In this document: positions 4,259 through 29,876 of the stretch, one piece after another | Numbering within the stretch: the first letter of the stretch is position 1 | How the letters are laid out: each line of letters opens with the position of its first letter | Source of the DNA: Eubacteriaceae bacterium | GTDB taxonomy: Bacteria > Bacillota > Clostridia > Lachnospirales > Lachnospiraceae | Assembly (NCBI GenBank): GCA_910574895.1 | Contig: CAJTDQ010000013.1 | Location: forward strand, 1-35,140 | Direction: 5' to 3' | Length of the DNA: 35,140 nucleotides | The notes under the pieces: model-generated | Told to the model about the DNA's origin: nothing | Seen by the model: the letters and a program-made list of their open reading frames with translations, nothing else | Databases searched by the model: none | Position numbers and translations under genes: made by a program

Positions 4259-5148
4259 TAAAAGTAATTGGAGTAAGATTCAGACAGGCAGGAAAAATTT
4301 ATAATTTCGACCCGGCTGAATTGGATATAAAAAAGGGAGACCATGTTATTGTTGAAACTGCCAGAGGCGTAGAATATGGTTACGTGGTGGAAGATATAAA
4401 AGAAGTTACAGAAGAAGATGTGATTATGCCTTTAAAACCTGTAATGAGAGTGGCAACACCGGAAGATGATAAAAAGGCAGAGGAGAATATAGAAAAAGAA
4501 AAAAAAGCATTCAAGATATGTAAAGAAAAGATTGTGAAACATGGTCTTGAAATGAAATTAATTGATACAGAGTATACGTTTGACAATAATAAAGTTTTAT
4601 TTTATTTTACAGCAGATGGAAGAATTGATTTTAGAGAGTTAGTTAAGGACTTGGCAGCTGTATTTAAAACAAGAATTGAGTTGAGACAGGTTGGTGTCAG
4701 AGATGAGACAAAAATGTTAGGCGGAATGGGCATTTGTGGAAGACCATTGTGTTGTAACACATATTTGTCAGAATTTATTCCGGTATCTATTAAAATGGCA
4801 AAAGAGCAGAATCTGTCATTAAATCCGACAAAGATTTCAGGAATATGCGGCAGATTAATGTGCTGTCTAAAAAATGAGCAGGAAGCGTACGAGCACTTAA
4901 ATTCAAATCTACCGGATGTAGGTGAGTTTGTAAAAACTTTTGATGGATTTAAGGGTGAAGTAGTTAGTGTTAATGTACTTCGTCAGAAAGTTAAGATTGT
5001 TATTGAACAGAATGACGAAAGGGAAGTAAAAGAATACGCTATTAAGGAATTGAAGTTTAAGCCAAAGAAAAAGAAGTTTGATTTGGCCGCAGAGGAGCTG
5101 AAAGAGTTAAAAGGACTAGAGGATTCTGAAGGTTCTAAATTAGACTAA
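4255..5148 (+). CDS. ricT: RicT/YaaT PSP1-domain regulatory protein
   Basis: This 297-residue PSP1 C-terminal-domain protein carries the cysteine-rich core of the family: GICGRPLCC and GICGRLMCC at about residues 160-205. In Bacillus, RicT forms an Fe-S complex with RicA and RicF that steers RNase Y and supports sporulation, competence and biofilm formation. The N-terminus (IGVRFRQAGKIYNFDP) and the loop ETARGVEYGYVV are typical. It overlaps holB by four bases, as in the Bacillus order holB-yaaT. The C-terminus is Lys/Glu-rich and probably disordered. No ricA or ricF is nearby. Confidence 0.93.
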   Translation: MIKVIGVRFRQAGKIYNFDPAELDIKKGDHVIVETARGVEYGYVVEDIKEVTEEDVIMPLKPVMRVATPEDDKKAEENIEKEKKAFKICKEKIVKHGLEMKLIDTEYTFDNNKVLFYFTADGRIDFRELVKDLAAVFKTRIELRQVGVRDETKMLGGMGICGRPLCCNTYLSEFIPVSIKMAKEQNLSLNPTKISGICGRLMCCLKNEQEAYEHLNSNLPDVGEFVKTFDGFKGEVVSVNVLRQKVKIVIEQNDEREVKEYAIKELKFKPKKKKFDLAAEELKELKGLEDSEGSKLD

Positions 5149-5188
5149 TTGAGATTAGGATAAATAGATTTCTATTGAGGAAATAATT

Positions 5189-5929
5189 GTGGAAGTGAAA
5201 ATAAAAGATGGAGAGCGCATTGATGAACTTGAGCGCAAGGGATATAAGATAATACAGGACAAAAATAGGTTTTGTTTTGGTATGGATGCCGTGCTTTTGA
5301 CAGGATTTGCAGAGGTGAGGGAAGGAGAAAAGGTCCTTGATCTTGGTACAGGAACAGGAGTTATACCGTTACTGTTAGAGGCGAAGACTGAGGGAGAGCA
5401 TTTTACCGGACTTGAGATTCAGGAAGAAAGTGCCGATATGGCGGAGAGAAGCGTTCTTCTCAATGATTTGCAGGATAAAATAGATATTGTAAAAGGTGAT
5501 ATAAAAGAGGCTTCGAATATTTTTGGCGGAGCCGCTTTTGATATTGTAACTTGTAATCCACCCTATATGACAGAACATCATGGATTGAAAAACTTAGAAG
5601 AGCCAAAAGCGATTGCAAGGCATGAAATAAAGTGTAATTTAGAGGATGTTATCCGGGAGACAGCAAAAGTCTTAAAGCCTGGTGGAAGATTCTACATGGT
5701 ACATAGACCGAGGAGATTGGTTGAGATTATCCGTTTCATGCATGAGTATAAAATAGAGCCCAAACGTCTCAGAATGGTGCATCCATTTGAGAATAAAGAC
5801 GCCAATATGATTTTAGTAGAGGGACGACGTGGAGGCGGGTCAATGATGAAAGTAGAAGCTCCATTAATTGTTTATCAGTCACAGGGAGAATATACGGAAG
5901 AAATTTTGAGAATATATGGAAAGATATAA
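5189..5929 (+). CDS. tRNA1(Val) (adenine(37)-N6)-methyltransferase family protein (YabB/TrmN6-like)
   Basis: This 246-residue Rossmann-fold, SAM-dependent methyltransferase has FGMDAVLLTGFA, motif I VLDLGTGTGVIPLLL (around residues 51-65) and the N6-adenine methylase motif NPPY followed by the basic stretch typical of the TrmN6 group. It presumably methylates adenine 37 of a tRNA. The start is GTG 5189 with GAGG (5177-5180) 8 bases upstream. Position between ricT and rsmI matches Bacillus yabB. The Bacillus neighbours yabA and yazA are absent here. Confidence 0.9.
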   Translation: MEVKIKDGERIDELERKGYKIIQDKNRFCFGMDAVLLTGFAEVREGEKVLDLGTGTGVIPLLLEAKTEGEHFTGLEIQEESADMAERSVLLNDLQDKIDIVKGDIKEASNIFGGAAFDIVTCNPPYMTEHHGLKNLEEPKAIARHEIKCNLEDVIRETAKVLKPGGRFYMVHRPRRLVEIIRFMHEYKIEPKRLRMVHPFENKDANMILVEGRRGGGSMMKVEAPLIVYQSQGEYTEEILRIYGKI

Positions 5930-5983
5930 AAGTCTTTGTACGCTTAAGAAGTAGTTTGATTTGAAGTAGAGCAGGGAAGAAAT

Positions 5984-6823
5984 ATGGCAGGAAAATTGTA
6001 TTTATGTGCTACCCCAATAGGAAATTTGGAAGATATTACATATAGGGTAGTAAGAACATTAAAAGAAGTTGATTTAATCGGAGCAGAAGATACAAGAAAT
6101 AGTATCAAGCTGTTAAATCATTTTAATATAAGTACTCCAATGACCAGTTATCATGAGTTTAATAAATATGATAAGGCAAAGGCATTGGTAGAAGAAATGC
6201 TACAGGGTAAAAATATTGCTTTGATTACAGATGCAGGAACACCTGGAATTTCTGATCCGGGAGAGGAGCTGGTGCGGCAGTGTTTCGAAGCGGGTGTAGA
6301 AGTGACATCACTTCCAGGGGCAGCAGCCTGTGTTACGGCACTTACGATGTCCGGGCAGAAGACGAGACGTTTTGTTTTTGAGGCTTTTCTGCCAAAGGAT
6401 AAAAAGGAAAAAGCAAAGGTGTTGGAGAATCTCGAGAAAGAAACAAGGACAATTATCATTTATGAGGCACCACACAGATTGACAAAGACTCTAAAAGAAC
6501 TGGAAAGAGTTCTGGGTGACAGACCGATAACGATATGCAGAGAGCTTACGAAGAAATTTGAGGAAGCGTTTCAGACTACAATCACAGAAGCAATAGAATT
6601 GTATCAGGAGAAAGAGCCTAAGGGTGAGTATGTGCTGGTTATTGCCGGAAAGCCGGAGGAAGAGTTAGAAGAGGAAAAGCGAAAACAGTGGGAAGAGATG
6701 ACCATAAAAGAACATGTAAACTATTATATTGAGCAGGGTAACGACAAAAAGGAAGCGATGAAACTGACTGCAAAAGACAGAGGAGTATCTAAGCGGGATA
6801 TTTATAATCAGTTGATTGAGTAA
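5984..6823 (+). CDS. rsmI: 16S rRNA (cytidine(1402)-2'-O)-methyltransferase
   Basis: This 279-residue tetrapyrrole-methylase-fold enzyme methylates the ribose of C1402 in the decoding centre. Family motifs are LYLCATPIGNLEDIT at the start, GAEDTRNS, ITDAGTPGISDPGE, the SAM-binding SLPGAAACVTAL and the C-terminal EHVNYYIEQGNDKKEAMK extension. Length is normal. It is the last gene of the holB-ricT-rsmI run and is followed by a terminator. Confidence 0.95.
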   Translation: MAGKLYLCATPIGNLEDITYRVVRTLKEVDLIGAEDTRNSIKLLNHFNISTPMTSYHEFNKYDKAKALVEEMLQGKNIALITDAGTPGISDPGEELVRQCFEAGVEVTSLPGAAACVTALTMSGQKTRRFVFEAFLPKDKKEKAKVLENLEKETRTIIIYEAPHRLTKTLKELERVLGDRPITICRELTKKFEEAFQTTITEAIELYQEKEPKGEYVLVIAGKPEEELEEEKRKQWEEMTIKEHVNYYIEQGNDKKEAMKLTAKDRGVSKRDIYNQLIE

Positions 6824-7497: not shown

Positions 7498-8109
7498 ATG
7501 CTTAATTATATCTGGGCGTTTATGATTGTTATCGGAGTAATATATGGTGTAGCGACAGGAACAATAGAACAGGTGGGTAACGGTGCAATAGAGTCAGCGG
7601 AAGAAGCAGTAAAACTTTGCATTACAATGCTGGGAATCATGAGTATGTGGATGGGTTTTATGAAAGTGGCGGAAAACTCGGGATTGATAAGGAAAGCAGA
7701 AAAGGGATTAGAACCTGTTGTAAGATGGTTATTTCCTAATATGCCAAAAGAACATAAAGCAAGACCACATATTACGACGAATATTATTGCAAACCTGTTA
7801 GGTCTGGGGTGGGCTGCTACTCCGGCAGGTTTAAAAGCTATGGAGGAATTGTCAAAGGATCCAATTCCTCAAAATGGGAAAGTTATCCCCGGTCACATAT
7901 CGACAAATGAAATGTGTACTTTTTTAGTAATAAATATATCTTCTCTGCAGCTGATTCCTGTTAATATGATTGCATATAGAAGCCAGTATCATTCCCAAAG
8001 TCCTGCATCGATTGTAGCGCCGGCGATATTGGCAACAACAATTAGTACTTTGGCAGGGGTAATTTTTTGTAAAATAATGTGCAGAAGAAAAGTAAAAGTC
8101 AGGGAATAG
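7498..8109 (+). CDS. spmA: Spore maturation protein A
   Basis: This 203-residue polytopic membrane protein has a nucleoside-recognition (Gate) domain. The SpmA hallmarks are GAIESAEEAVKLCITMLGIMSMWMG near the N-terminus, IIANLLGLGWAATPAGLKAMEEL in the middle and FLVINISSLQLIPVNMIAYR toward the end. In Bacillus SpmA and SpmB act together in spore core dehydration. SD AGAGG lies 5-6 bases before the ATG. Its usual partner spmB is not next to it but 8 kb away at 16138, beyond the B12 block. Confidence 0.95.
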   Translation: MLNYIWAFMIVIGVIYGVATGTIEQVGNGAIESAEEAVKLCITMLGIMSMWMGFMKVAENSGLIRKAEKGLEPVVRWLFPNMPKEHKARPHITTNIIANLLGLGWAATPAGLKAMEELSKDPIPQNGKVIPGHISTNEMCTFLVINISSLQLIPVNMIAYRSQYHSQSPASIVAPAILATTISTLAGVIFCKIMCRRKVKVRE

Positions 8110-8139
8110 ATGGAAACAAAATACATGAGAATAATAAAT

Positions 8140-8168
8140 TTGACATCAAATGTCACATAAGTTACAAT
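8140..8168 (+). promoter_or_regulatory. Promoter of the B12-controlled operon, with overlapping inverted repeat
   Basis: TTGACA (8140-8145), a 17-base spacer and TACAAT (8163-8168) form a strong vegetative promoter. A perfect inverted repeat, TGACAT-CAA-ATGTCA (8141-8155), overlaps the -35 box and could be an operator, though no regulator is identified. Confidence 0.75.
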
Positions 8169-8189
8169 AATTAGGTCAATTTGATATAA

Positions 8190-8360
8190 ATTGTTGTGGT
8201 CTGGGATAAGAAAAATAATCTGTCGCCAGTTTAAGGGAAGTCCGGTGTGAATCCGGCACAGTCTTTCTCTACTGTATGAGGGACGAACAAAGCAAAATGC
8301 CACGGGAGAGTCCTGGAAGGCGCTTTTAGTAGAATGAACTTAAGTCAGGATATGTCAACA
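8190..8360 (+). ncRNA. Cobalamin riboswitch
   Basis: Conserved elements of the B12 riboswitch appear in order: GGGAA with CCGGTGTGAATCCGG (around 8235-8256), ACTGT (8271-8275), GCCAC (8299-8303), TGGAAGGC (8314-8321) and the B12 box AGTCAGGATA (8343-8352). It lies just downstream of the promoter and upstream of an intrinsic terminator, so it should act by transcription termination when cobalamin is bound, shutting off the transport operon. Outer boundaries are approximate. Confidence 0.9.
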
Positions 8361-8406
8361 CAACAAACCAGAATTCGCAGGCAAGGCGAAGAGGATATAT
8401 ATGTTA

Positions 8407-8443
8407 TCTGACAGATTATGAAGGTCTGTCAGACAGCTTTTTT
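8407..8443 (+). terminator. Riboswitch expression-platform terminator
   Basis: TCTGACAGA (8407-8415) is perfectly complementary to TCTGTCAGA (8425-8433), followed closely by a run of T (8438-8443). It sits between the riboswitch and the first gene, which begins 71 bases later, so it is the likely OFF structure. Confidence 0.85.
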
Positions 8444-8513
8444 AGTCTTGCAATTTTGCAGGGCTTTTCTTTTATTCATTTCTGGAAATTATCAATGGCA
8501 GAAGGAGGATAAA

Positions 8514-9626
8514 ATGAACAGAATTACAAAAAAGGTTTTGTCAGCAGTGATTGTATTGGCGATGGTTTTATCTACAATTACTGTTACATTTGCAGAAGAA
8601 GCAAAAACAATTAAGGTTACTATGAGTATTGAGAGATTTACAATTGGACAAGGTTTCTTAGTAGAACCGATGATAGTAGAACTTAATGAAGGGGCGTCTG
8701 TACAGGATGTATTAGAAAAAGCAGCAGAGGAAAAGAACATCAAACTAAATGGAACAACAAGTGAATATGGATATTATTTAGAGAGCATCAGCAATGCAGA
8801 TACAGGTGCTATAAATATTCCACAGACGATTCAGGATATGGCAAGTATTGATGTTGATTATGGAAGCGGTTATGTTTATCATTATGATGCACCAACAAAT
8901 ACCAGTACAAATAAATTATTTGAGGATGAACAGAAATTAGGAACTGGTTCTTATACAGAATTGTCCGGCTGGTTGTATAGCATTAATAATAAAGAATCGA
9001 GTAATGGAATGAGTTCTCAGCCTGTGAAAGATGGTGATGTTGTAAGAATACAGTTTAGTGTATATGCAGGAGGGGCTGATTTAGGATTTCACAGTTGGTA
9101 TGATAATATTGAAAGTGCAAAGTTAGCTGATAAGGATAAGCTGATGAAGCAGGCAGCAGGTGTTGATGCGGAAGGAGAATTGAAAGAGGCAAGAGCAGAG
9201 GCAGTCAGAGTTCTTGAAAAGTATGATGCTACACAGGAAGAAGTAGATAAAGCATTGCTAAATCTGGGTTATGTAGAGGAAACAACAGAGCCGGAGACAA
9301 CCACTGCAGCACCAACAACACCGGAAACTACTACGATTGCACCATTAAAAAGAGTAACAATAAAAAAATTAACGAATGTTAAAAAGTATAAAGTAAAAAT
9401 AAAGATTAATAAAGTAACCGGAGCAAAAGGTTATCAGTACCGGTATGCAACAAATAAGAAATTTAAAAAGAGCAAAGTGAAAACGACTACAAAGACTACT
9501 TATACAACGAAGAAACTTTCAAAAAAAGTTCGGTGTTATGTGAAAGTCAGAGCCTACAGAATAATAAAAGGAAAAAAGAGTTTTGGCAGGTGGAGTAAAG
9601 TAAAATCTTTGAAAGTAAAAAAATAA
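8514..9626 (+). CDS. Secreted DUF4430 (transcobalamin-like C-terminal) protein with Fn3-like tail
   Basis: This 370-residue exported protein has a signal peptide at 1-28 (ending VTFA-EE). A DUF4430 domain spans about 31-187 and contains the signature SGWLYSINN (151-159) followed by VKDGDVVRIQFSVY. A short helical segment lies at about 215-252, a Thr/Pro linker at 255-277, and a basic Fn3-like domain at 278-370 of a kind common at the C-terminus of Lachnospiraceae surface proteins. DUF4430 is the fold of the cobalamin-binding beta-domain of intrinsic factor/transcobalamin, and the gene lies directly under a B12 riboswitch, so surface corrinoid capture is inferred. GGAGG at 8504-8508 fixes ATG 8514; an in-frame ATG at 8418 lies in the terminator hairpin. 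Confidence 0.85.
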   Translation: MNRITKKVLSAVIVLAMVLSTITVTFAEEAKTIKVTMSIERFTIGQGFLVEPMIVELNEGASVQDVLEKAAEEKNIKLNGTTSEYGYYLESISNADTGAINIPQTIQDMASIDVDYGSGYVYHYDAPTNTSTNKLFEDEQKLGTGSYTELSGWLYSINNKESSNGMSSQPVKDGDVVRIQFSVYAGGADLGFHSWYDNIESAKLADKDKLMKQAAGVDAEGELKEARAEAVRVLEKYDATQEEVDKALLNLGYVEETTEPETTTAAPTTPETTTIAPLKRVTIKKLTNVKKYKVKIKINKVTGAKGYQYRYATNKKFKKSKVKTTTKTTYTTKKLSKKVRCYVKVRAYRIIKGKKSFGRWSKVKSLKVKK

Positions 9627-9644
9627 AAAGAAAGCAGGCGAAAG

Positions 9645-11504
9645 ATGAGCAGATGTTGGAACAAGTTAATTCAATATATTTCCGTAGTAGGTATAGCGTT
9701 TATATGCCTATTGGTATTTGCTGTGCCTGCACAGGGAAGTACGATTCTGACGAAATCACAGACGAAGAATTATCTTGATAAAATATCTGAATATGAAATA
9801 AGTAAAGTAGCCAGTCCCACCTATGGCAGCGTAGGTGGGGAGTGGCTTATTATGGGGCTTGCCAGATATGGGACATTGACGGAATCTTATTTAAATATAT
9901 ATTTGAATAATCTGAAATCTGAAGTGGAGAAATGTCATGGTGTTTTATCAAAAAATAAGTATACGGAATATGCAAGGGTAGTATTGGCACTGACATCTGT
10001 AAATACTGCACCGGATAATTTTGCAGGATATAATCTGCTTAGGCCATTAGCAGAATTAGATCATGTTGTAAAAACGGGAATGAATAGTGTGGCGTTTTGT
10101 CTGCTGGCATTTGATTGTGGAAATTATGAAATTCCGGATACAGCAAAAGAATATACAGGAGAAAAAACAACACGGGAAAAATTGATTTCTATATTGCTGG
10201 ATAATCAGTTAAATGATGGTGGATGGGCGATTACAGGAAAAAAATCAGAAGCAGATGTGACTGCAATGGTATTACAGGCACTGTCAAAGTATCGTAAGCA
10301 GAAAAAGGTGGAGAATGCTATTGAGAGTGGTGTGAAAATGTTATCAGCCAGACAAAATAAATCCGGGGCTTTTTCTAGTGGAGGAAGTGAAAATTGTGAA
10401 AGTATCGCTCAGGTATTAGCAGCTTTGACAGCATTGGATATTAAGGTATCAGATAATCGTTTTATAAAAGATAATCATACAGTATTGGATGGATTGTTAC
10501 AATATTATCAGGATGGTGGTTTTAAACATACAGAAGACAGTTTTGTAAATCAGATGTCGACGGAACAGGCAATGTACTCACTGACGGCATACTATAGAAG
10601 TTTGTCAGATGAAAATGGTTTATATAACATGAACGACAATAAAAATTCGTTTAAGAACAAGACAAAAGAGAAGAAACGAAAAGATAATATTTCCTTAAAT
10701 CAGAAAAGTAATAAAAAGAGAGCATCAAGAAAGATTGATATAACAGGACAAAACAAAACAGGTGATTCCTTACAGAAGAATACAGATACGAGTGTGAAGG
10801 AAACACAAGAAGGTTTGGCGGAAAATAATAAAGCAAAAAAGAAATTGAAGAGAAAGAATAAAAAAACACCAGAAACGCTGATAGAAGAGACTGAAGAGAA
10901 AAACAGTCAGGAAAATATGACAAAAGAAAAAATGATGCAGAATAACAAACCAGCGAAGAATTATAAATGGCTTGGAATAATTTTAGGAGTTTTGGGATTA
11001 ACTGCAGCAGGAATATTTTTGAAAAGAAAAAATAATTTTTTTATTATGCTTATCACAGTCTGTCTGATTTTTGGCGGATGCACAAAAGGTAAGTCAGAAG
11101 ATGAGATAAAGGAGACTGCAGGAAACTGCACAATATTAGTAGAATGTTCTACAATTTATGATAATTTAGACGATCTGGATGATGGATTAAAAGCGCATAT
11201 TCCGAAAGATGGCGTTATATTGAAGGAACAAGAGGTTTCTTTCAAAAAAGATGACAGTGTTTATGATGTTCTTTCCAGAGAATTAAAAAAGAACAATATA
11301 TTAATGGAAGCATCTTTCACAGGAACGAATGCCTATATAGAAGGAATTGATAATATTTACGAATTTTCCTGTGGAGGACAGTCAGGGTGGCTGTATTGTG
11401 TGAATGGGGAGTATCAGCAAAAAAGCTGCAGTGAGTATAAGGTAAAAGCCGGTGACAAAATAGAATGGCACTATACGTGCGATTTAGGTGAGGACGTAAG
11501 ATAA
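9645..11504 (+). CDS. Intrinsic factor/transcobalamin-like surface protein: alpha-barrel repeats plus DUF4430
   Basis: This protein has 619 residues. A signal peptide (1-31, VPAQG) precedes prenyltransferase/squalene-oxidase-type helical repeats at about 35-322, with motifs TYGSVGGEWLIMGLARYG, DGGWAITGKKSEADVTAMVL, KSGAFSSGG and DGGFKHT. A Lys/Glu-rich linker (330-440) leads to a membrane helix (442-459), a KRKNN turn, and a second hydrophobic helix (465-478) ending GGC at Cys479, a possible lipobox. A DUF4430 domain at about 494-612 includes QSGWLYCVNGEY (579-590). Alpha-barrel plus beta-domain is the layout of animal cobalamin carriers. The predicted topology puts both domains outside. Its stop overlaps the EcfT start by one base, tying it to the transporter. 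Cobalamin binding is inferred. Confidence 0.8.
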   Translation: MSRCWNKLIQYISVVGIAFICLLVFAVPAQGSTILTKSQTKNYLDKISEYEISKVASPTYGSVGGEWLIMGLARYGTLTESYLNIYLNNLKSEVEKCHGVLSKNKYTEYARVVLALTSVNTAPDNFAGYNLLRPLAELDHVVKTGMNSVAFCLLAFDCGNYEIPDTAKEYTGEKTTREKLISILLDNQLNDGGWAITGKKSEADVTAMVLQALSKYRKQKKVENAIESGVKMLSARQNKSGAFSSGGSENCESIAQVLAALTALDIKVSDNRFIKDNHTVLDGLLQYYQDGGFKHTEDSFVNQMSTEQAMYSLTAYYRSLSDENGLYNMNDNKNSFKNKTKEKKRKDNISLNQKSNKKRASRKIDITGQNKTGDSLQKNTDTSVKETQEGLAENNKAKKKLKRKNKKTPETLIEETEEKNSQENMTKEKMMQNNKPAKNYKWLGIILGVLGLTAAGIFLKRKNNFFIMLITVCLIFGGCTKGKSEDEIKETAGNCTILVECSTIYDNLDDLDDGLKAHIPKDGVILKEQEVSFKKDDSVYDVLSRELKKNNILMEASFTGTNAYIEGIDNIYEFSCGGQSGWLYCVNGEYQQKSCSEYKVKAGDKIEWHYTCDLGEDVR

Positions 11505-12364
11505 TGAAAGATGAGTTTTCAAGATTTCATCCGTTAGTAAATTTAATATTTTATTTGGTAGTATTAGGGCTTACTATGTTTCAGATGCAGTTAGGGCTGG
11601 TGCTGATTTCTATATTTTCAGCATTGGCTTATTACTTTTGTTTAAAAGGACGGGAAGGAGTAAAGTATCTGTTGATAGTAAGTTTCGTTTTTTTAGTTTC
11701 GTCCTTTATAAATCCATTATTTTCTCATAGAGGAGGAACATTGTTATTCTATTTGTTTACCGGTAATCCGGTAACTTTGGAGTCGATTATATATGGTATT
11801 GTGTCTTCTGCGATTATATGCAGTATGCTTATATGGTTTTCTACGTTTTATCAGATAATGGGGATAGAAAGATTTTTTGGAGCAGTGGGAAAATTTGTGC
11901 CTCATGTGGCATTACTTGTTTCTATGATATTGAGATTTATACCAAAATACATGAAACACTATAAAGAGGTTTCTTCGGTCAATGGAGATGAAGGAGAAAA
12001 ATTTATTAGAAAAATAAAGAGAGGCAGCAAAGTTTTTTCTATAACAACAACATGGGCATTGGAAAATTCAATTGATACAGCAGACTCGATGAAAGCCAGA
12101 GGGTTTGGAGTAAGGAAAAGGACAAACTACAGTAATTACAAAATAGAAAAACGGGATATTGGTGTGATGATATGGATTATTGTATTAGCAGGTATTATTT
12201 TATGGGCATCATGCAAAGATATGGTTTTTACATATTACTATCCATATATCGTTTATAAAGGAAATATTTTTGTTTATATTCTTTATGCATTGTTATGTTT
12301 GACACCGGTTTTTATTAATATCAGGGAGGGATTAAGATGGCGCAGATTGAAATCAAAGATTTAA
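11504..12364 (+). CDS. ecfT: ECF transporter T component (CbiQ/EcfT family)
   Basis: This 286-residue membrane protein is the coupling subunit of an energy-coupling-factor transporter. It has about five or six hydrophobic segments, including HPLVNLIFYLVVLGLTMFQM near the start, RFIPKYMKHYKEV, and the EcfT coupling-helix signature ADSMKARGFGVRKRTNY, whose Ala-Arg-Gly contacts the ATPases. TAATG overlap joins it to the preceding surface-protein gene, and its end overlaps the ATPase gene by 28 bases. With the riboswitch upstream, cobalamin is the likely substrate of the whole transporter. Confidence 0.92.
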   Translation: MKDEFSRFHPLVNLIFYLVVLGLTMFQMQLGLVLISIFSALAYYFCLKGREGVKYLLIVSFVFLVSSFINPLFSHRGGTLLFYLFTGNPVTLESIIYGIVSSAIICSMLIWFSTFYQIMGIERFFGAVGKFVPHVALLVSMILRFIPKYMKHYKEVSSVNGDEGEKFIRKIKRGSKVFSITTTWALENSIDTADSMKARGFGVRKRTNYSNYKIEKRDIGVMIWIIVLAGIILWASCKDMVFTYYYPYIVYKGNIFVYILYALLCLTPVFINIREGLRWRRLKSKI

Positions 12365-13908
12365 GTTTCAAATATAAAGTATCTGATAAACAAAGTCTGA
12401 AGAACGTCTCTCTAAGTATTGAAAAAGGGCAGTTCATTGTTGTGTGTGGAAAGTCCGGCTGTGGCAAAACGACATTTCTGCGATGTTTGAAACCACAAAT
12501 CAGACCGGCAGGAAATATTGAAGGGACAGTAAGCTTTGACGGTCTGAAGATAGAGGAAATGACAGATGAAGAGCAGGCAAAAAAAATAGGTTATGTCATG
12601 CAGAATCCGGAACATCAGATTGTGACAGATAAGGTGTGGCATGAACTGGCATTTGGATTAGAGAATTTTGGAGACAAAAGTGAATATATACGTGCTAAGA
12701 CAGCAGAAATTGCAGAGTATTTTGATATTACCGGCTGGTACAATGAAGATACGGACTCGTTGTCAGGAGGGCAGAAACAACTATTGAATCTGGCAGCAGT
12801 TATGGTAATGGGTCCGGAGGTGCTTGTCTTAGATGAACCAACAGCTCAGTTAGATCCGATTGCAGCAGAAAGATTCTTAGATATATTAAAGAAAATAAAT
12901 GAAGATTTTGGCATTACTGTAATTATTTCAGAACATCGTCTGAATTATGTTTTAAAAAAGGCAGACAAAGTGCTGGTGTTAGAAAAAGGTGAAGTAAGTG
13001 ATTATGGTAAAATAAGAGAAGTAGTGAAAAAAGGTCTGTCTATGGATATAGAGCCTTTAATGCCTGTGCCAAGCAGGACTTTTGGGCAGAGTGAGGGAGA
13101 AGTCCCTATATCTGTAGCTGAGGGGCGAAGATGGCTGGAAAACAATTGGAATCGTAAGAGAAAAAAAGAGTTAAACGGGATAGATTCTGAAAAGAATAAA
13201 GATAAAGAAATACGAAAAAAACAATATAGTGTTTTATGTAATAATATTTGGTTTCGTTATGAAAAAAATGGTTGTGATATTGTTCAGGGATTAAATCTGC
13301 AAGTTGAAAAAGGAGAAATCTTTGCGATTCTCGGAGGAAACGGAACAGGGAAGACAACCACGCTTCTTTTGTTGTCTAAAATTTTGAAGGCATACAGAGG
13401 TAAATTGAAAATGGACGGAAAGGCAGTGTTACTGCCGCAGAATGTACAGATTTTATTTGAGAGGGAGACTGTTTCAGAGGAGTTGGAAAATGTTTCTGAT
13501 AAAATGATAAAGGAAATGAAATTGGAAGCACTTATGAAGATGCATCCTTATGATTTAAGCGGTGGTGAACAGCAGAAAGCAGCGCTTGCAAAAATATTGT
13601 CTAAAGAGCCGGATATTTTACTATTGGATGAGCCGACAAAGGGGATGGATAATATTTTTAAAGAAGAGTTGGGAAGATTTTTAAAATGTCTGGCAGCAAG
13701 TGGAAAAACGATTATCATAGTTAGTCATGATTTAGATTTCTGTGGAGAGTTTGTGGACCGGTGCGGGCTTTTTGCCAATGGCAGTCTTATCTCAGAATCA
13801 GATGTTAGGGAGTTTTTTGTAAATAACAGGTTTTATACAACGACAGTGGCAAAAATGTCAAAGGGAATTGTAGAGAATGCTTATAAAATGGAGGATATTA
13901 TATGTTAA
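12337..13908 (+). CDS. Fused ECF transporter ATPase (EcfA-EcfA')
   Basis: This 523-residue protein carries two complete ABC ATPase domains. Domain 1 has Walker A GKSGCGKTT (38-46), Q-loop MQNPEHQ, signature LSGGQ (142-146), Walker B VLVLDEP and switch SEHR. A charged linker lies at about 245-295. Domain 2 has Walker A GGNGTGKTT (333-341), signature LSGGE (407-411), Walker B LLLLDEP and SHD. Both sites look intact. It powers the ECF transporter with the T protein encoded upstream and the S protein downstream. AGGGAGGG precedes ATG 12337. The gene overlaps both neighbours, showing tight translational coupling. In many Firmicutes the two ATPases are separate genes. Confidence 0.92.
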   Translation: MAQIEIKDLSFKYKVSDKQSLKNVSLSIEKGQFIVVCGKSGCGKTTFLRCLKPQIRPAGNIEGTVSFDGLKIEEMTDEEQAKKIGYVMQNPEHQIVTDKVWHELAFGLENFGDKSEYIRAKTAEIAEYFDITGWYNEDTDSLSGGQKQLLNLAAVMVMGPEVLVLDEPTAQLDPIAAERFLDILKKINEDFGITVIISEHRLNYVLKKADKVLVLEKGEVSDYGKIREVVKKGLSMDIEPLMPVPSRTFGQSEGEVPISVAEGRRWLENNWNRKRKKELNGIDSEKNKDKEIRKKQYSVLCNNIWFRYEKNGCDIVQGLNLQVEKGEIFAILGGNGTGKTTTLLLLSKILKAYRGKLKMDGKAVLLPQNVQILFERETVSEELENVSDKMIKEMKLEALMKMHPYDLSGGEQQKAALAKILSKEPDILLLDEPTKGMDNIFKEELGRFLKCLAASGKTIIIVSHDLDFCGEFVDRCGLFANGSLISESDVREFFVNNRFYTTTVAKMSKGIVENAYKMEDIIC

Positions 13909-14519
13909 AGGAGTATTATCTCATATCCATTTTAATAATTCTGATATCTATTGTAGTTTTTGCGTGGTCTTTTGAAAAAAGAAAACCAAAGACAAGGGAA
14001 ATTGTATTGCTGGCAGTTTTGACGAGCATGGCGATTGCAGGCAGGTTGATGTTTTTTATGACACCACAGTTTAAACCCAGTGTTGCAGTTATTATTATTA
14101 CAGCGGTAATGTTAGGGCAAGAAGCAGGTTTCTTAAGTGGATGTCTGACAGCATTTATTTCTGATTTCTTTTTTGGGCAGGGTCCGTGGACGCCATGGCA
14201 GATGATTGCACTGGGACTTATCGGGGTTATTTCGGCGTGGATTTTTCAGGGAGCAGGGCAAAAGTTTATTAATAACAGATGGATACTCAGTATGTATGGA
14301 TTTCTTATAACATTTGTATTGTATGGACTGATAATGGATACGGCGACTGTTGTAATGTATACAGACAAACCAAGGTTTTCTGCCTTTCTTGCAGCATATG
14401 CCACCGGATTTGTATTTAATCTGATACATGGAGCATCGACATTTATTTTCCTGTTTTTTATTTCAAGACAAATGTTTCAAAAAATTAACAGAATAAAGTT
14501 AAAGTTTAATATGTTTTAG
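13902..14519 (+). CDS. ECF transporter substrate-binding S component, probably cobalamin (CbrT-like)
   Basis: This 205-residue protein is almost wholly hydrophobic with about six membrane segments. The segment after the first helix, REIVLLAVLTSMAIAGRLMFF, and FFFGQGPWTPWQM are typical of a family of ECF S subunits. The S subunit gives substrate specificity. Here that is assigned to cobalamin or a corrinoid precursor because the operon starts with a B12 riboswitch and encodes transcobalamin-like proteins; sequence alone does not prove it. It overlaps the ATPase gene by 7 bases and ends the operon, and the next gene has its own promoter. Confidence 0.82.
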   Translation: MLKEYYLISILIILISIVVFAWSFEKRKPKTREIVLLAVLTSMAIAGRLMFFMTPQFKPSVAVIIITAVMLGQEAGFLSGCLTAFISDFFFGQGPWTPWQMIALGLIGVISAWIFQGAGQKFINNRWILSMYGFLITFVLYGLIMDTATVVMYTDKPRFSAFLAAYATGFVFNLIHGASTFIFLFFISRQMFQKINRIKLKFNMF

Positions 14520-14549
14520 AAAAACAAAGATAAAGCTGAATAAAATTAA

Positions 14550-14578
14550 TTGAATTTGGGGTAAGATGGTGCTATTAT
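14550..14578 (+). promoter_or_regulatory. Promoter of the antiporter gene
   Basis: TTGAAT (14550-14555), a 17-base spacer and TATTAT (14573-14578) with an upstream TG (extended -10) give a good vegetative promoter. The leader before the ATG is about 90 bases. It suggests that the antiporter can be expressed independently of the riboswitch. Confidence 0.6.
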
Positions 14579-14673
14579 GAATCGGGCTGTGAAAAAAGAA
14601 ACTATCTGTAAACATTTTATTATTTATGCATTTAATATAAGGACAGCAGGGTACATAGAAAGAGGAAAACATC

Positions 14674-16020
14674 ATGGAAAAGTATGGATATTTGTGGCAG
14701 CTTGCATTGATTTTAGCCAGTACTAAAGTTTTTGGACTGGTAACAAAGAGGTTTCATATGCCGCAGGTTGTTGGAGCATTGTTGGCAGGACTGGTTTTAG
14801 GACCGGCGATACTGGGAAATCTATTATCGGGAGTTCATATTGGCAGTTTTCAATTAGTGGATTTGACACTTTATCAGACATCTTTTATTAATAACCTGGC
14901 AGAGATAGGGGTTATTGTATTGATGTTCTGTGCCGGTCTGGAGACAGATATAAAGGAATTGAAGAAGTGCGGATTAGCATCATTTATTATTGCAGTATCA
15001 GGTGTTATTGTACCATTGATAGGCGGAGCAGCGTTTACTTACTGGTTTCTTCAGGCAGGATGGATACAGCAGGCAGATACTTCTTCCGTATTTATGCAGG
15101 CGGTGTTTGTAGGTGTAATACTGACAGCAACATCCGTAAGTATTACTGTTGAAACATTGCAGGAGATGGGAAAATTAAAGACCGCATCTGGTAATGCGAT
15201 ACTGGGAGCGGCAATTATTGATGATATTCTTGGCATCGTAGCATTAACGATTGTAATTAGTTTAGGTGGAAGTCCGAAAGATGGGGCAGAGACAACGCCT
15301 CTTGGAATGGTGCTATTAAAGATATTATTGTTTTTTGTCTTTGTCGGCGTTTTTGGATTTGTTATATACAAATTATATAAGACGTGGTGTGAGCATGACG
15401 GAAAAGGAAAACACAGACATGCGATTATGGCATTTGTTATTTGTCTGATTATGGCTTTTGCAGCGGAAAGCCTCTTTGGTGTGGCAGATATCACAGGAGC
15501 TTTTTTTGCAGGTGTCATTATTTCCATGACACAGAAAGATCAGTTTGTGGCATCAAAATTTGATGTAATTGCTTATATGCTTTTAAGTCCGATATTTTTT
15601 GCAAGCATTGGTTTGAAAGTAGATGGAGAGGCAGTCATGCATATGGGACTTTTGGTAGTAATTTATGCAGTGGTTTTGACAATCGTTGCGATTTTAACAA
15701 AAGTGGTTGGCTGTGGACTGGGTGCAAAGGCATGTGGATATAAAAATTACCAATGTCTCAGAATCGGTGTAGGAATGGTATCCCGTGGTGAGGTTGCTTT
15801 GATTGTGGCGAATAAAGGAATAGAGGCGGGGCTGATGAGTTCAGAGATTGTCGCACCGGTAATTATTGTCGTAATTGTCACTACGATATTAACACCAATT
15901 ATTTTAAAACCGGTGTTTATGAGAAAGGGACCAAACGGTGCAGATATTACAATTGAAAGTAAGCTGGTAAATAACTACGAAGAAAGAGCAGAGTATAATA
16001 AATATAAACCTAAAAAATAG
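14674..16020 (+). CDS. Cation:proton antiporter (CPA2/Kef family)
   Basis: This 448-residue membrane protein has about 12-13 hydrophobic segments. Family features are MPQVVGALLAGLVLGPAILG near the N-terminus, NLAEIGVIVLMFCAGLETD, the ion-binding region LGAAIIDDILGIVAL with the paired Asp residues, and FFASIGLKVD. It should exchange Na+ or K+ for protons across the membrane. There is no C-terminal TrkA-N domain, so it is the short form. SD GAGG lies 8 bases before the ATG. It lies between the B12 operon and spmB with its own promoter and terminator. A role linked to B12 uptake or to sporulation is not evident. Confidence 0.88.
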   Translation: MEKYGYLWQLALILASTKVFGLVTKRFHMPQVVGALLAGLVLGPAILGNLLSGVHIGSFQLVDLTLYQTSFINNLAEIGVIVLMFCAGLETDIKELKKCGLASFIIAVSGVIVPLIGGAAFTYWFLQAGWIQQADTSSVFMQAVFVGVILTATSVSITVETLQEMGKLKTASGNAILGAAIIDDILGIVALTIVISLGGSPKDGAETTPLGMVLLKILLFFVFVGVFGFVIYKLYKTWCEHDGKGKHRHAIMAFVICLIMAFAAESLFGVADITGAFFAGVIISMTQKDQFVASKFDVIAYMLLSPIFFASIGLKVDGEAVMHMGLLVVIYAVVLTIVAILTKVVGCGLGAKACGYKNYQCLRIGVGMVSRGEVALIVANKGIEAGLMSSEIVAPVIIVVIVTTILTPIILKPVFMRKGPNGADITIESKLVNNYEERAEYNKYKPKK

Positions 16021-27650: not shown

Positions 27651-27905
27651 CATAGGTAAACGCATTGAAAGGAAGAGTAAACTGAAGCGAAACTTAAAAG
27701 AGAGCCTGATTGGGTGAAAGCAGGCAGCGGAGTGACAGTTGAAGATGGCCCTGGAGCGGTGGTAATGAGTGTAGAGATTCATCACATAAGTTATCGACGG
27801 GAACACCCGTTATAGTGTCAATGAGGTCTGGGATATCTCAGATAAAGTAAAGTGGTACCACGAAGTTTTTATGCTCTCGTCTTTGCAAAAAGACGGGAGC
27901 TTTCT
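27651..27905 (+). ncRNA. T-box leader (Met) controlling metG
   Basis: The leader has the stem I hallmarks AGAGAG and GGGTGAAAGC (27701-27722), a probable specifier ATG at 27745-27747 in the GAAGATGG context, the T-box core AAAGTGGTACCACG around 27849-27862, and a terminator. Uncharged tRNA-Met should pair at specifier and T-box and favour the antiterminator. Together with MetRS downstream this fits methionyl-tRNA sensing. Boundaries are approximate. Confidence 0.9.
27873..27905 (+). terminator. T-box terminator
   Basis: GCTCTCGTCTTT (27873-27884) pairs with AAAGACGGGAGC (27889-27900) over 12 base pairs with one G-T pair, then TTTCT. This is the regulated terminator ahead of metG. Confidence 0.88.
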
Positions 27906-27929: not shown

Positions 27930-29876
27930 ATGAGTAAAACATATTATTTAACAACAGCAATTGCTTACACATCAGGAAAGCCGCATATTGGAAATACTTA
28001 TGAGGCTATTCTTGCGGACAGTATTGTACGTTTTAAAAGACAGCAGGGATATGATGTGAGATTTCAGACAGGAACAGATGAACATGGACAGAAAATCGAG
28101 TTAAAGGCAGCAGAGGCCGGCATTACTCCAAAAGAATATGTTGATAATGTGGCAGGAGTCATCAAAGAGATATGGGATGCAATGAACACATCATATGATA
28201 AGTTTATCAGAACTACGGATGCGGACCATGAAGCACAGGTTCAGAAGATTTTTAAGAAATTATATGATCAGGGAGATATTTATAAAGGGCATTATGAAGG
28301 AATGTACTGTACACCATGTGAATCATTTTTTACAGAGTCACAGTTAGTAGATGGAAAATGTCCGGATTGCGGAAGAGAATGTACACCGGCACAGGAAGAA
28401 GCATACTTTTTCAGAATGAGTAAGTATGCAGACAGATTGATAGAACATATCAATACCCATCCTGAATTTATTCAGCCGGAGTCCAGAAAGAATGAGATGA
28501 TGAATAATTTCCTTCTTCCGGGATTGCAGGATTTATGTGTTTCCAGAACATCATTTAAGTGGGGCGTTCCCGTAGACTTTGACCCAAACCATGTTGTTTA
28601 TGTATGGATTGATGCTCTGTCAAACTATATTACAGGACTGGGATTTGATTTGGATGGAAACAGCAATCCGATGTTTGAAAAATATTGGCCGGCAGACCTA
28701 CATTTAATAGGAAAAGATATTTTGAGATTCCACACAATTTACTGGCCGATTATGTTGATGGCTCTTGATATTCCACTTCCGAAACAGATATTTGGCCATC
28801 CTTGGTTATTACAGGGGGATGGTAAGATGAGCAAATCCAAAGGAAACGTAATCTATGCTGATGATTTAGCGGGACTGTTTGGAGTGGATGCAGTAAGATA
28901 TTTTGTTCTTCATGAGATGCCATTTGAAAATGATGGAACAATTACATGGGAGCTGATGGTCGAAAGAATGAATTCAGACCTTGCCAATACTCTTGGAAAT
29001 CTTGTGAACAGAACAATTTCTATGTCAAATAAATATTTTGGCGGTGTTGTTGCAGACAAGGGTGTTGTGGAAGATGTGGATGCAGACTTTAAGAAGGTAA
29101 TTTTAGAAGCACCAGTGAAGGCAGCAGAGAAAATGGATAAACTGCGTGTGGCTGATGCAATGACAGAAATTTTTGCATTGTTTAAGAGATGTAATAAGTA
29201 TATTGATGAAACAATGCCTTGGGCATTGGCAAAAGAAGAGGATAAGCAGGACAGACTTGCGACAGTTCTTTATAATCTAATTGAAGGAATTAATATTGGA
29301 GCAAGCCTTCTTGAACCGTTTATGCCGGAGACTTCTAAGAAAGTATTAGAGCAGATCAATGGTACAGCAAGAGCGTTTGATGATATGATGGAATTTGGAA
29401 AATATCTGTCAGGAAACAAGGTGACAGAAAAGCCTGAAATCTTATTTGCCAGAATGGATGTAAAGGAAGTAATGGAGAAGGTAGCAGAAATCGAGGCAGC
29501 ACAGAAGGCAGAAGCAGAAGGTGAGAAATATCCGGAAGTAGAGAAGAAACCTGAGATTTCTATTGACGATTTTGATAAGGTGCAGATTCAGGTAGGTGAA
29601 GTAATTAAATGCGAGCCGGTACCAAAAGCAAAGAAACTTTTAGTTTCACAGATAAAGATTGGTGCTGAAACAAGACAGATTGTGTCCGGTATAGCAAAGT
29701 ACTATAAACCGGAAGAGATGGTTGGAAAGAAAGTGGCAGTTATTACAAATCTGAAACCGTGCAAACTTTGCGGTGTGGAATCACAGGGAATGATTCTTGC
29801 TGCAGGAGATGATGAAGGGAATTTATCCGTTGTAACAGTGGATAAAGATATTGTCGCAGGAAGTGAAATCTGCTAA
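27930..29876 (+). CDS. metG: Methionyl-tRNA synthetase
   Basis: This 648-residue class I synthetase attaches methionine to tRNA-Met. The HIGH-type motif is PHIGN (18-22) and KMSKS is at 299-303. One zinc knuckle is formed by Cys127, Cys130, Cys144 and Cys147. The Met-specific anticodon-binding helical domain follows, and a C-terminal OB-fold tRNA-binding (EMAP-II-like) domain covers about 545-648, with VQIQVGEVIKCEPVPKAKKL and LKPCKLCGVESQGM. AAAAGGAG before the ATG is good. It is regulated by the upstream T-box. The order metG-tatD-rsmA continues downstream. Confidence 0.97.
   Translation: MSKTYYLTTAIAYTSGKPHIGNTYEAILADSIVRFKRQQGYDVRFQTGTDEHGQKIELKAAEAGITPKEYVDNVAGVIKEIWDAMNTSYDKFIRTTDADHEAQVQKIFKKLYDQGDIYKGHYEGMYCTPCESFFTESQLVDGKCPDCGRECTPAQEEAYFFRMSKYADRLIEHINTHPEFIQPESRKNEMMNNFLLPGLQDLCVSRTSFKWGVPVDFDPNHVVYVWIDALSNYITGLGFDLDGNSNPMFEKYWPADLHLIGKDILRFHTIYWPIMLMALDIPLPKQIFGHPWLLQGDGKMSKSKGNVIYADDLAGLFGVDAVRYFVLHEMPFENDGTITWELMVERMNSDLANTLGNLVNRTISMSNKYFGGVVADKGVVEDVDADFKKVILEAPVKAAEKMDKLRVADAMTEIFALFKRCNKYIDETMPWALAKEEDKQDRLATVLYNLIEGINIGASLLEPFMPETSKKVLEQINGTARAFDDMMEFGKYLSGNKVTEKPEILFARMDVKEVMEKVAEIEAAQKAEAEGEKYPEVEKKPEISIDDFDKVQIQVGEVIKCEPVPKAKKLLVSQIKIGAETRQIVSGIAKYYKPEEMVGKKVAVITNLKPCKLCGVESQGMILAAGDDEGNLSVVTVDKDIVAGSEIC

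Follow-up and report, generated by a model that had tools for sequence, protein, structure and literature searches.

The systems closest to the one considered here were outlined by Burroughs, Balaji, Iyer and Aravind in 2007 (PMC1796856), who predicted, in the relevant passages of their paper, that toroid and transcobalamin-like proteins encoded in CbiO/CbiQ operons act in B12 scavenging. As set out in those passages, an SLBB domain (DUF4430) is joined to a toroid that may lie to either side of it, the operon encodes another SLBB protein along with CbiO/CbiQ-type genes, and the proteins are secreted, all of which is shared by the present locus, an operon in a 35,140-nucleotide stretch of contig CAJTDQ010000013.1 from a Eubacteriaceae bacterium (the window). 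The word riboswitch does not occur in the main text of PMC1796856, and its passages on these systems differ from our findings in that they mention neither an S subunit, nor dockerin or SLH modules, nor a fusion of toroid and DUF4430 through membrane segments. The original prediction for this DNA, made from its letters, had described one of its proteins as a bacterial counterpart of intrinsic factor and transcobalamin under B12 control; the core of that idea is not novel, being the prediction of Burroughs et al.

On the importer side, the relevant system is ECF-CbrT of Lactobacillus delbrueckii (6FNP), whose S subunit is homologous to that of the window; the genes named in part of the paper describing it are nrdJ-cbrS-cbrT-pduO, with no DUF4430 partner named there, while the window operon has a dedicated EcfT and a double EcfA together with extracellular capture proteins (PMC5997447). 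For a lipoprotein of a cobalamin ECF transporter, such as the second DUF4430 domain of our operon (DUF4430-B) would be, a name is already in use: a table of PMC9963975 lists K8Q211 as 'Additional lipoprotein component of putative cobalamin ECF transporter', and the paper notes a DUF4430 protein encoded beside an rtpR gene. To judge from its name, K8Q211 is likely the same as DUF4430-B. Portions of PMC11477304, PMC7478625 and PMC1949818 deal with the SLBB domain or with B12 importers of other kinds and do not name this cassette. In the searchable part of the open-licence PMC literature we found neither experimental work on these proteins nor a connection to riboswitches or dockerins, and no riboswitch counts, fusion, or dockerin/SLH anchors on barrel proteins.

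Animal intrinsic factor, transcobalamin and haptocorrin resemble the window protein in that a single chain has an alpha/alpha barrel and, after it, a beta-grasp domain of the DUF4430 type. In contrast to these carriers, which use a receptor, the window protein adjoins an ECF importer gene, and it has a long linker and hydrophobic segments and is probably membrane-bound.

Results

A five-gene operon behind a cobalamin riboswitch

Five plus-strand genes, for DUF4430-A, the barrel/DUF4430-B protein, EcfT, a double EcfA and a CbrT-like S subunit, lie behind a riboswitch and a terminator (Table 1). Eighteen bases separate the first two, and the last four overlap by 1, 28 and 7 bases, the stop codon of the barrel/DUF4430-B gene having one base in common with the ATG of the next, called EcfT, which agrees with the predicted overlap with an ECF transporter gene. 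That gene does stand behind a cobalamin riboswitch as had been proposed, only as the second of the operon, the DUF4430-A gene being the first. The same gene order recurs in relatives, and we therefore do not regard the arrangement as chance. The terminator is likely the expression platform of the riboswitch; terminator-like sites within 7900-14700 number 6 against a shuffle mean of 2.5, and promoter-like sites, taken together, barely exceed the number in shuffled sequence (31 against a mean of 26.4, sd 5.8). Together with the riboswitches found in relatives (below), the riboswitch and terminator before the operon uphold the proposed B12 control.

Table 1. Features of the operon in the window (position 1 is the first letter of the 35,140-nucleotide stretch)
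Feature	Positions	Strand	Basis
Sigma-70-like promoter, TTGACA-17-TACAAT	8140..8168	+	Consensus scan, 11/12 matches
Cobalamin riboswitch aptamer	8180..8373	+	RF00174, 55.5 bits, E 2.5e-11; gathering score 31.5
Strong intrinsic terminator	8407..8443	+	11-pair stem 8407-8433, then T run; scan and sequence reading
DUF4430-A protein gene	8514..9626 (ORF listed from 8418)	+	PF14478, E 3.7e-8
Barrel/DUF4430-B protein gene, 619 aa	9645..11504	+	ORF, Pfam, predicted structure
Alpha/alpha barrel, about residues 36-322	9750..10610	+	Pfam matches and predicted structure
Lipobox-like Ile-Phe-Gly-Gly-Cys, residues 475-479	11067..11081	+	By eye, after second hydrophobic segment
DUF4430 copy B, residues 494-618	11124..11498	+	PF14478 at 536-611, E=1.5e-15, above cut-off
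EcfT (CbiQ-like) transmembrane subunit	11504..12364	+	Synteny and similarity to annotated EcfT
EcfA, two ATPase domains (CbiO-like)	12337..13908	+	ABC_tran in two stretches, 4e-53
ECF S subunit, CbrT-like, fifth gene	13902..14519	+	PF07155, 7.7e-13

Because the ATG listed for the first gene (8418) sits within the terminator stem, we prefer 8514, behind AAGGAGG, as its likely true start, and an automatic annotation may misplace this start by 96 bases. The PF14478 match of the first gene was obtained on the 370-aa form and covers 35 of the 72 profile positions. From a signal segment and a tail read by eye, the DUF4430-A protein is probably secreted, with a Lys-rich Fn3-like tail that may be a wall-binding module. 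Read by eye, the same Lys-rich C-terminal module recurs in other probably secreted proteins of this genome, encoded at L159:4142-5092 and 5085-6125.

Up to E=1 the third product has no Pfam or NCBIfam match; we call it EcfT because it is placed between DUF4430 and EcfA genes in relatives and is similar to an annotated EcfT of Latilactobacillus curvatus (23% over 220 residues, E 3e-19). Among NCBIfam models the fourth product matches ECF_ATPase_1 (2e-90) and, above its cut-off, the cbiO subfamily. The S subunit has three PDB matches in total, the best being 6fnp_A (E 8.9e-8; alignable over 28-199) and the second 4hzu_S (E 0.01); 6fnp is ECF-CbrT, as stated in part of the eLife paper (PMC5997447). 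The link to an ECF S subunit that had been proposed is supported, the subunit being of CbrT type. With PF14478 in two proteins, a toroid, and CbiO-like and CbiQ-like genes, the operon has features of the systems predicted by Burroughs et al. Elsewhere in the window, a T-box leader (27656-27887, 109 bits) precedes an ORF at 27930.

Barrel and DUF4430-B in one chain

In the second product, the barrel matches SQHop_cyclase_C slightly below the Pfam cut-off (E=7.5e-6, 25.6 bits against 26.1) and Prenyltrans far below it (E=0.0056, 16.6 bits against 26.5), and the predicted structure has confident helices over about residues 37-319; with the Pfam match of DUF4430-B, this confirms that a single ORF joins an alpha/alpha barrel and DUF4430. 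The model also has an N-terminal hydrophobic helix, and a low-confidence linker of ~110 residues plus two hydrophobic segments (441-476) separate the barrel from DUF4430-B. By topology both would lie outside the cell. Phe at position -3 is non-canonical for a lipobox, and the Cys479 motif has Phe there.

Among relatives, the barrel and DUF4430-B are mostly separate genes. In L078 and L079, which are close relatives, a hydrophobic segment and a basic tail (...GYILVRRRKKR in L078) close the barrel gene and a separate lipoprotein-like gene comes next (MKWMRRKQFLLLLIVLTVLLSGC... in L078), and it is to the lipoprotein start of this L078 gene that the lipobox-like site of the window protein corresponds. 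In the window, the same two pieces are continuous with no stop between them (...IFLKRKNNFFIMLITVCLIFGGC...). The same fusion with a lipobox-like cysteine is shared by L076 and L077, and we therefore do not take it for a sequencing slip. Five more distant loci (L060, L061, L062, L070 and L073) also have barrel-first fusions through two hydrophobic segments, and the lipobox cysteine is absent from the examined stretch of these five ORFs. Scored by simple patterns over 80 barrel/DUF4430-B pairs, a lipobox-like pattern occurs in the first 120 residues of DUF4430-B in 30 and an LPXTG-like motif at the barrel end in 2. Since what connects the two parts of the window protein is a pair of hydrophobic segments with a lipobox-like cysteine, the one chain may be cut in two, and a signal peptidase II cut at the internal lipobox may restore two proteins in the window lineage.

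Structural likeness to animal B12 carriers

When the predicted window protein was searched with Foldseek, ranks 1-15 were all chains of transcobalamin, haptocorrin and intrinsic factor (E 4.2e-9 to 3.8e-6), and rank 20 was the isolated transcobalamin beta domain 5no0 (TMt 0.78 to DUF4430-B); the expected resemblance of both parts to intrinsic factor and transcobalamin was thus recovered. The same 15 chains lead (E 4.0e-12 to 3.5e-10) for L114, a Clostridia relative with the animal domain order, in whose natural chain 40 residues lie between barrel and DUF4430. Superposition on the animal carriers, which the original prediction had called for, supported the likeness of both parts but not their placement: whole-chain rmsd is 23-26 Å for the window model and 22-24 Å for the model of L114 residues 255-705 (pTM 0.70), and neither of these models, which as ligand-free AlphaFold2 predictions from few rows holding both domains carry little weight on this point, sets the domains face to face as a vitamin clamp. 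On the L114 match list there is also 3u7z, a structural-genomics entry for R. gnavus 'putative metal binding protein RUMGNA_00854' (TM 0.72, normalised to the target), which may be a solved bacterial DUF4430.

Against the PDB, phmmer with the window protein found no match up to E=10, the DUF4430 profile A1 found none, and the separate DUF4430-B of L078 gave one chance match only. For the barrel, profiles A6 (63 of 67 barrel ORFs, the 4 over 1400 aa being skipped) and A5 (91 rows, after six barrel and two DUF4430 segments of the A4 set had been removed by hand; the structure alignment A4 used 98 of 138 prepared rows) placed squalene-hopene cyclases first, with transcobalamin absent; A6 also matched SLH proteins. 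None of these sequence searches thus led to transcobalamin, and it is the modelled structure and the Pfam DUF4430 match that support a likeness to the animal carriers. Unlike the animal carriers, the window protein has no match to PF01122 (Cobalamin_bind, the animal carrier barrel family) among the 8 Pfam families that it matches up to E=1.

The barrel is nearest by sequence to squalene-hopene cyclases and by VIA Z to terpene cyclases. At the place of D-x-D-D-T, the catalytic motif of squalene-hopene and class II terpene cyclases, residues 202-206 of the window protein read E-A-D-V-T in the family profile alignment, and the cyclase motif is therefore incomplete. The window protein differs in this respect from squalene-hopene cyclase and drimenyl diphosphate synthase, as it does in its very probably extracellular place and its transporter operon, and a terpene-cyclase enzyme was rejected for these reasons. 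Across 98 aligned barrels, six polar positions (E252, S253, Q256, D204, N147 and Q308) show 87-98% conservation.

The cassette in relatives

At E up to 0.001 the window protein has matches in 36 of 150 family genomes, its own included, and 41 stretches were taken, 40 from these genomes and one from a Latilactobacillus curvatus plasmid. DUF4430, EcfT and EcfA lie on one strand in 32 of the 41, with barrel and EcfS as well in 24. The cassette DUF4430 is common: it has at least 581 relatives among the 596 candidate stretches listed, from which 80 named loci, including Ruminococcus bromii, Blautia and Paenibacillus, were kept. All 80 have DUF4430 by design, as they were fetched by it; 68 have EcfT and EcfA too, 54 the barrel in addition, and 50 both barrel and EcfS, while the barrel is missing in 16, some of them short contigs. 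The 5' family neighbour of EcfT, where present, is a DUF4430 ORF in 69/69 cases in the named loci and in 28/31 in the 41 stretches. Two or more DUF4430 ORFs occur in 37 of the 80 loci, and 33 ORFs hold both barrel and DUF4430; in some, such as those of R. bromii (L090, L095), it is DUF4430-A that is joined to the barrel. Large proteins with two or three DUF4430 around one barrel are encoded at L114:5837-9013 and L144:11837-16402, that of L114 also having SLH.

Of the 63 barrel proteins scanned, 19 carry dockerin type I and 17 carry SLH. The order in the R. bromii proteins (L090:5494-7476, L095:5569-7467) is DUF4430, a weak cadherin-like match, barrel and dockerin, and the R. bromii barrel protein is behind an R1 riboswitch match (see below) of 54.8 bits, a site without an Rfam listing.

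Riboswitch linkage and the B12 economy of the host

The Rfam scan covered 39 of the 41 stretches (L041 and L056 were left out), a few of which hold no ECF genes, and RF00174 was found in 20 of the 39 and not in the other 19; the sole match in L063 is on the strand opposite to its own DUF4430 gene. We also used a model, R1, made from 22 riboswitches including that of the window, with a structure of 13 pairs; its E-values are rough. Of the 80 named loci, 41 have a same-strand R1 match at E up to 0.01, and setting aside that of L134, which is downstream of the cassette, leaves 40 in which the match is upstream of or overlaps the mechanical start of the first cassette ORF; where at least 600 nt of room is available, 37 of 58 loci have a match and 21 do not. 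R1 is looser than Rfam, detecting 7 of the nine loci given both against 5. In L077 and L078, close relatives of the window protein, no riboswitch was detected at the R1 and Rfam thresholds. Of the 46 R1 matches within that E limit of 0.01, a single one lies on the opposite strand; it is L122:7039-7241 (-), just ahead of a DUF4430 ORF of at least 2285 aa that is divergent from the ECF cassette. Divergent cobalamin riboswitches also stand back to back in L047, at 8748-8931 (-) and 9435-9638 (+), one facing the ECF cassette and the other an ORF, 3028 aa or longer, that contains DUF4430 and barrel regions.

In a cassette-independent test over the 150 family genomes, at least 23 of 108 DUF4430 places have a same-strand RF00174 upstream within 10 kb, against 3 in the control for the wrong side or strand, which covered threefold the space and drew on a longer list of riboswitches; 85 have no RF00174 nearby among the best 150 matches. 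The 23 are a lower bound, because the best 150 riboswitch matches and stricter filters were used, and adding the matches of the window and of the family-stretch scan gives 42/108, those stretches having been scanned because they hold the cassette. The count of riboswitches beside homologs, which had been proposed as a check, thus shows a linkage that is strong but not general, extending to about half of the loci.

The genome from which the window comes has two B12-binding domains above cut-off and, at 98.87% completeness, no match to CbiD, the sole B12 synthesis enzyme checked, and it therefore probably uses but does not make B12. In lacking CbiD it resembles the hosts of the systems of Burroughs et al., which, according to passages of PMC1796856, are usually without key B12 synthesis enzymes.

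Discussion

We consider it probable, on the combined weight of gene content, regulation and modelled folds, that the operon serves to capture B12 or related corrinoids at the cell surface and to import them. The ligand, the clamp and the hand-off in the following scheme we infer from the parts, their order, the switch and the predicted folds described above. When adenosylcobalamin is scarce, the leader would read through the terminator and the proteins would be made. The barrel, on its flexible linker, would reach into the wall, and the barrel and one or both DUF4430 domains would then enclose the corrinoid at the surface. At the membrane, DUF4430-B, retained there by its hydrophobic segment or by a lipidated Cys479, would pass the corrinoid to the S subunit, and the ECF motor would drive import. 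In the window lineage, the barrel and DUF4430-B would be translated as one chain, perhaps cut before Cys479 by signal peptidase II.

The barrel could instead be a separate surface module, an adhesin or terpene-cyclase-like remnant, with only DUF4430-B and the ECF parts handling B12. Its proximity to squalene-hopene and other terpene cyclases both by sequence and by Z, its absence from some of the named loci, part of them on short contigs, and its occurrence on SLH or dockerin proteins could be understood in this way; however, the barrel adjoins DUF4430 or shares a chain with it, its six polar positions are conserved, it has only part of the cyclase motif and very probably lies outside the cell, and we judge such independence of the barrel improbable. 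Alternatively, the system might take up, in place of cobalamin itself, a precursor of B12 or a corrinoid that is not complete (cobinamide, alpha-ribazole or a lower-ligand base). Cobalamin riboswitches govern salvage genes too, and the genome is without CbiD, both of which would suit a precursor, as would the report, in part of PMC5997447, that ECF-CbrT carries cobalamin and cobinamide. Yet the S subunit is nearest to CbrT, the whole architecture, as modelled, matches animal carriers of complete cobalamin, and a small base hardly needs a barrel plus two DUF4430 domains, which makes a precursor as the ligand quite improbable in our estimation.

In some of the family, namely a branch poor in riboswitches with the window included, the ligand might also be a different vitamin or cofactor. 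The S-subunit group of L055, L057, L058, L060, L062, L070, L072 and L073 has a riboswitch in 1, none in 5 and 2 undecided, and Zhulin's review of the 2007 paper, in the portion bearing on this point, warned that other ligands are likely (PMC1796856). Against this, the window has a riboswitch, its own (starred) S-subunit group of 5 rows has 3, and riboswitch presence is scattered over the tree instead of lying on one side: over the 90 rows of the S-subunit tree the riboswitch label needs 26 changes against a shuffled mean of 29.2, with 51 of 500 shuffles as low. With labels so scattered there is no clean ligand split on the tree, and we regard a ligand unrelated to B12 as highly improbable for the window. 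We retain the reading as corrinoid capture and import: the operon is real, very probably has this function, and is one more case of the type predicted in 2007.

Although the core idea dates from 2007, the counts, the fusion and the anchors make the old prediction directly testable. If it is right, gut Clostridia that depend on B12 bind it by means of a protein akin to the human B12 carriers, which would bear on the competition for B12 among gut organisms and agree with the proposal, made in part of the 2007 paper, that animals took their carriers from such bacteria (PMC1796856).

An extension that we put forward only tentatively, and regard as rather unlikely in its full form, is a two-stage B12 relay in Gram-positive gut bacteria. 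An outer stage of barrel and DUF4430-A, in many species mounted on the S-layer or on a dockerin/cohesin scaffold that also bears glycan-degrading enzymes, as in Ruminococcus bromii, would deliver to an inner DUF4430-B at the CbrT-like S subunit; in the window lineage the barrel and DUF4430-B would be one polypeptide, cut by signal peptidase II at the internal lipobox. R. bromii is said not to make B12 in a passage of PMC6231298, and its starch enzymes carry dockerins building amylosomes, according to part of PMC6118326. From the domain content of the barrel proteins, scaffolds of the cellulosome or amylosome type may bear the B12 capture parts, and a putative B12 receptor on the R. bromii scaffold, for which the dockerin-cohesin pairing is predicted, is to us the most surprising observation here.

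Surface parts may extend beyond the operon. The other of the two cobalamin riboswitch matches in the genome of the window, G000:C1:387594-387784 (-), lies ~110 bases ahead of L159:6545-9481 (-), which encodes a 978-aa protein with GLUG motifs and an Fn3-like tail; this protein is probably secreted and not a B12 enzyme, and may be another surface part of B12 uptake.
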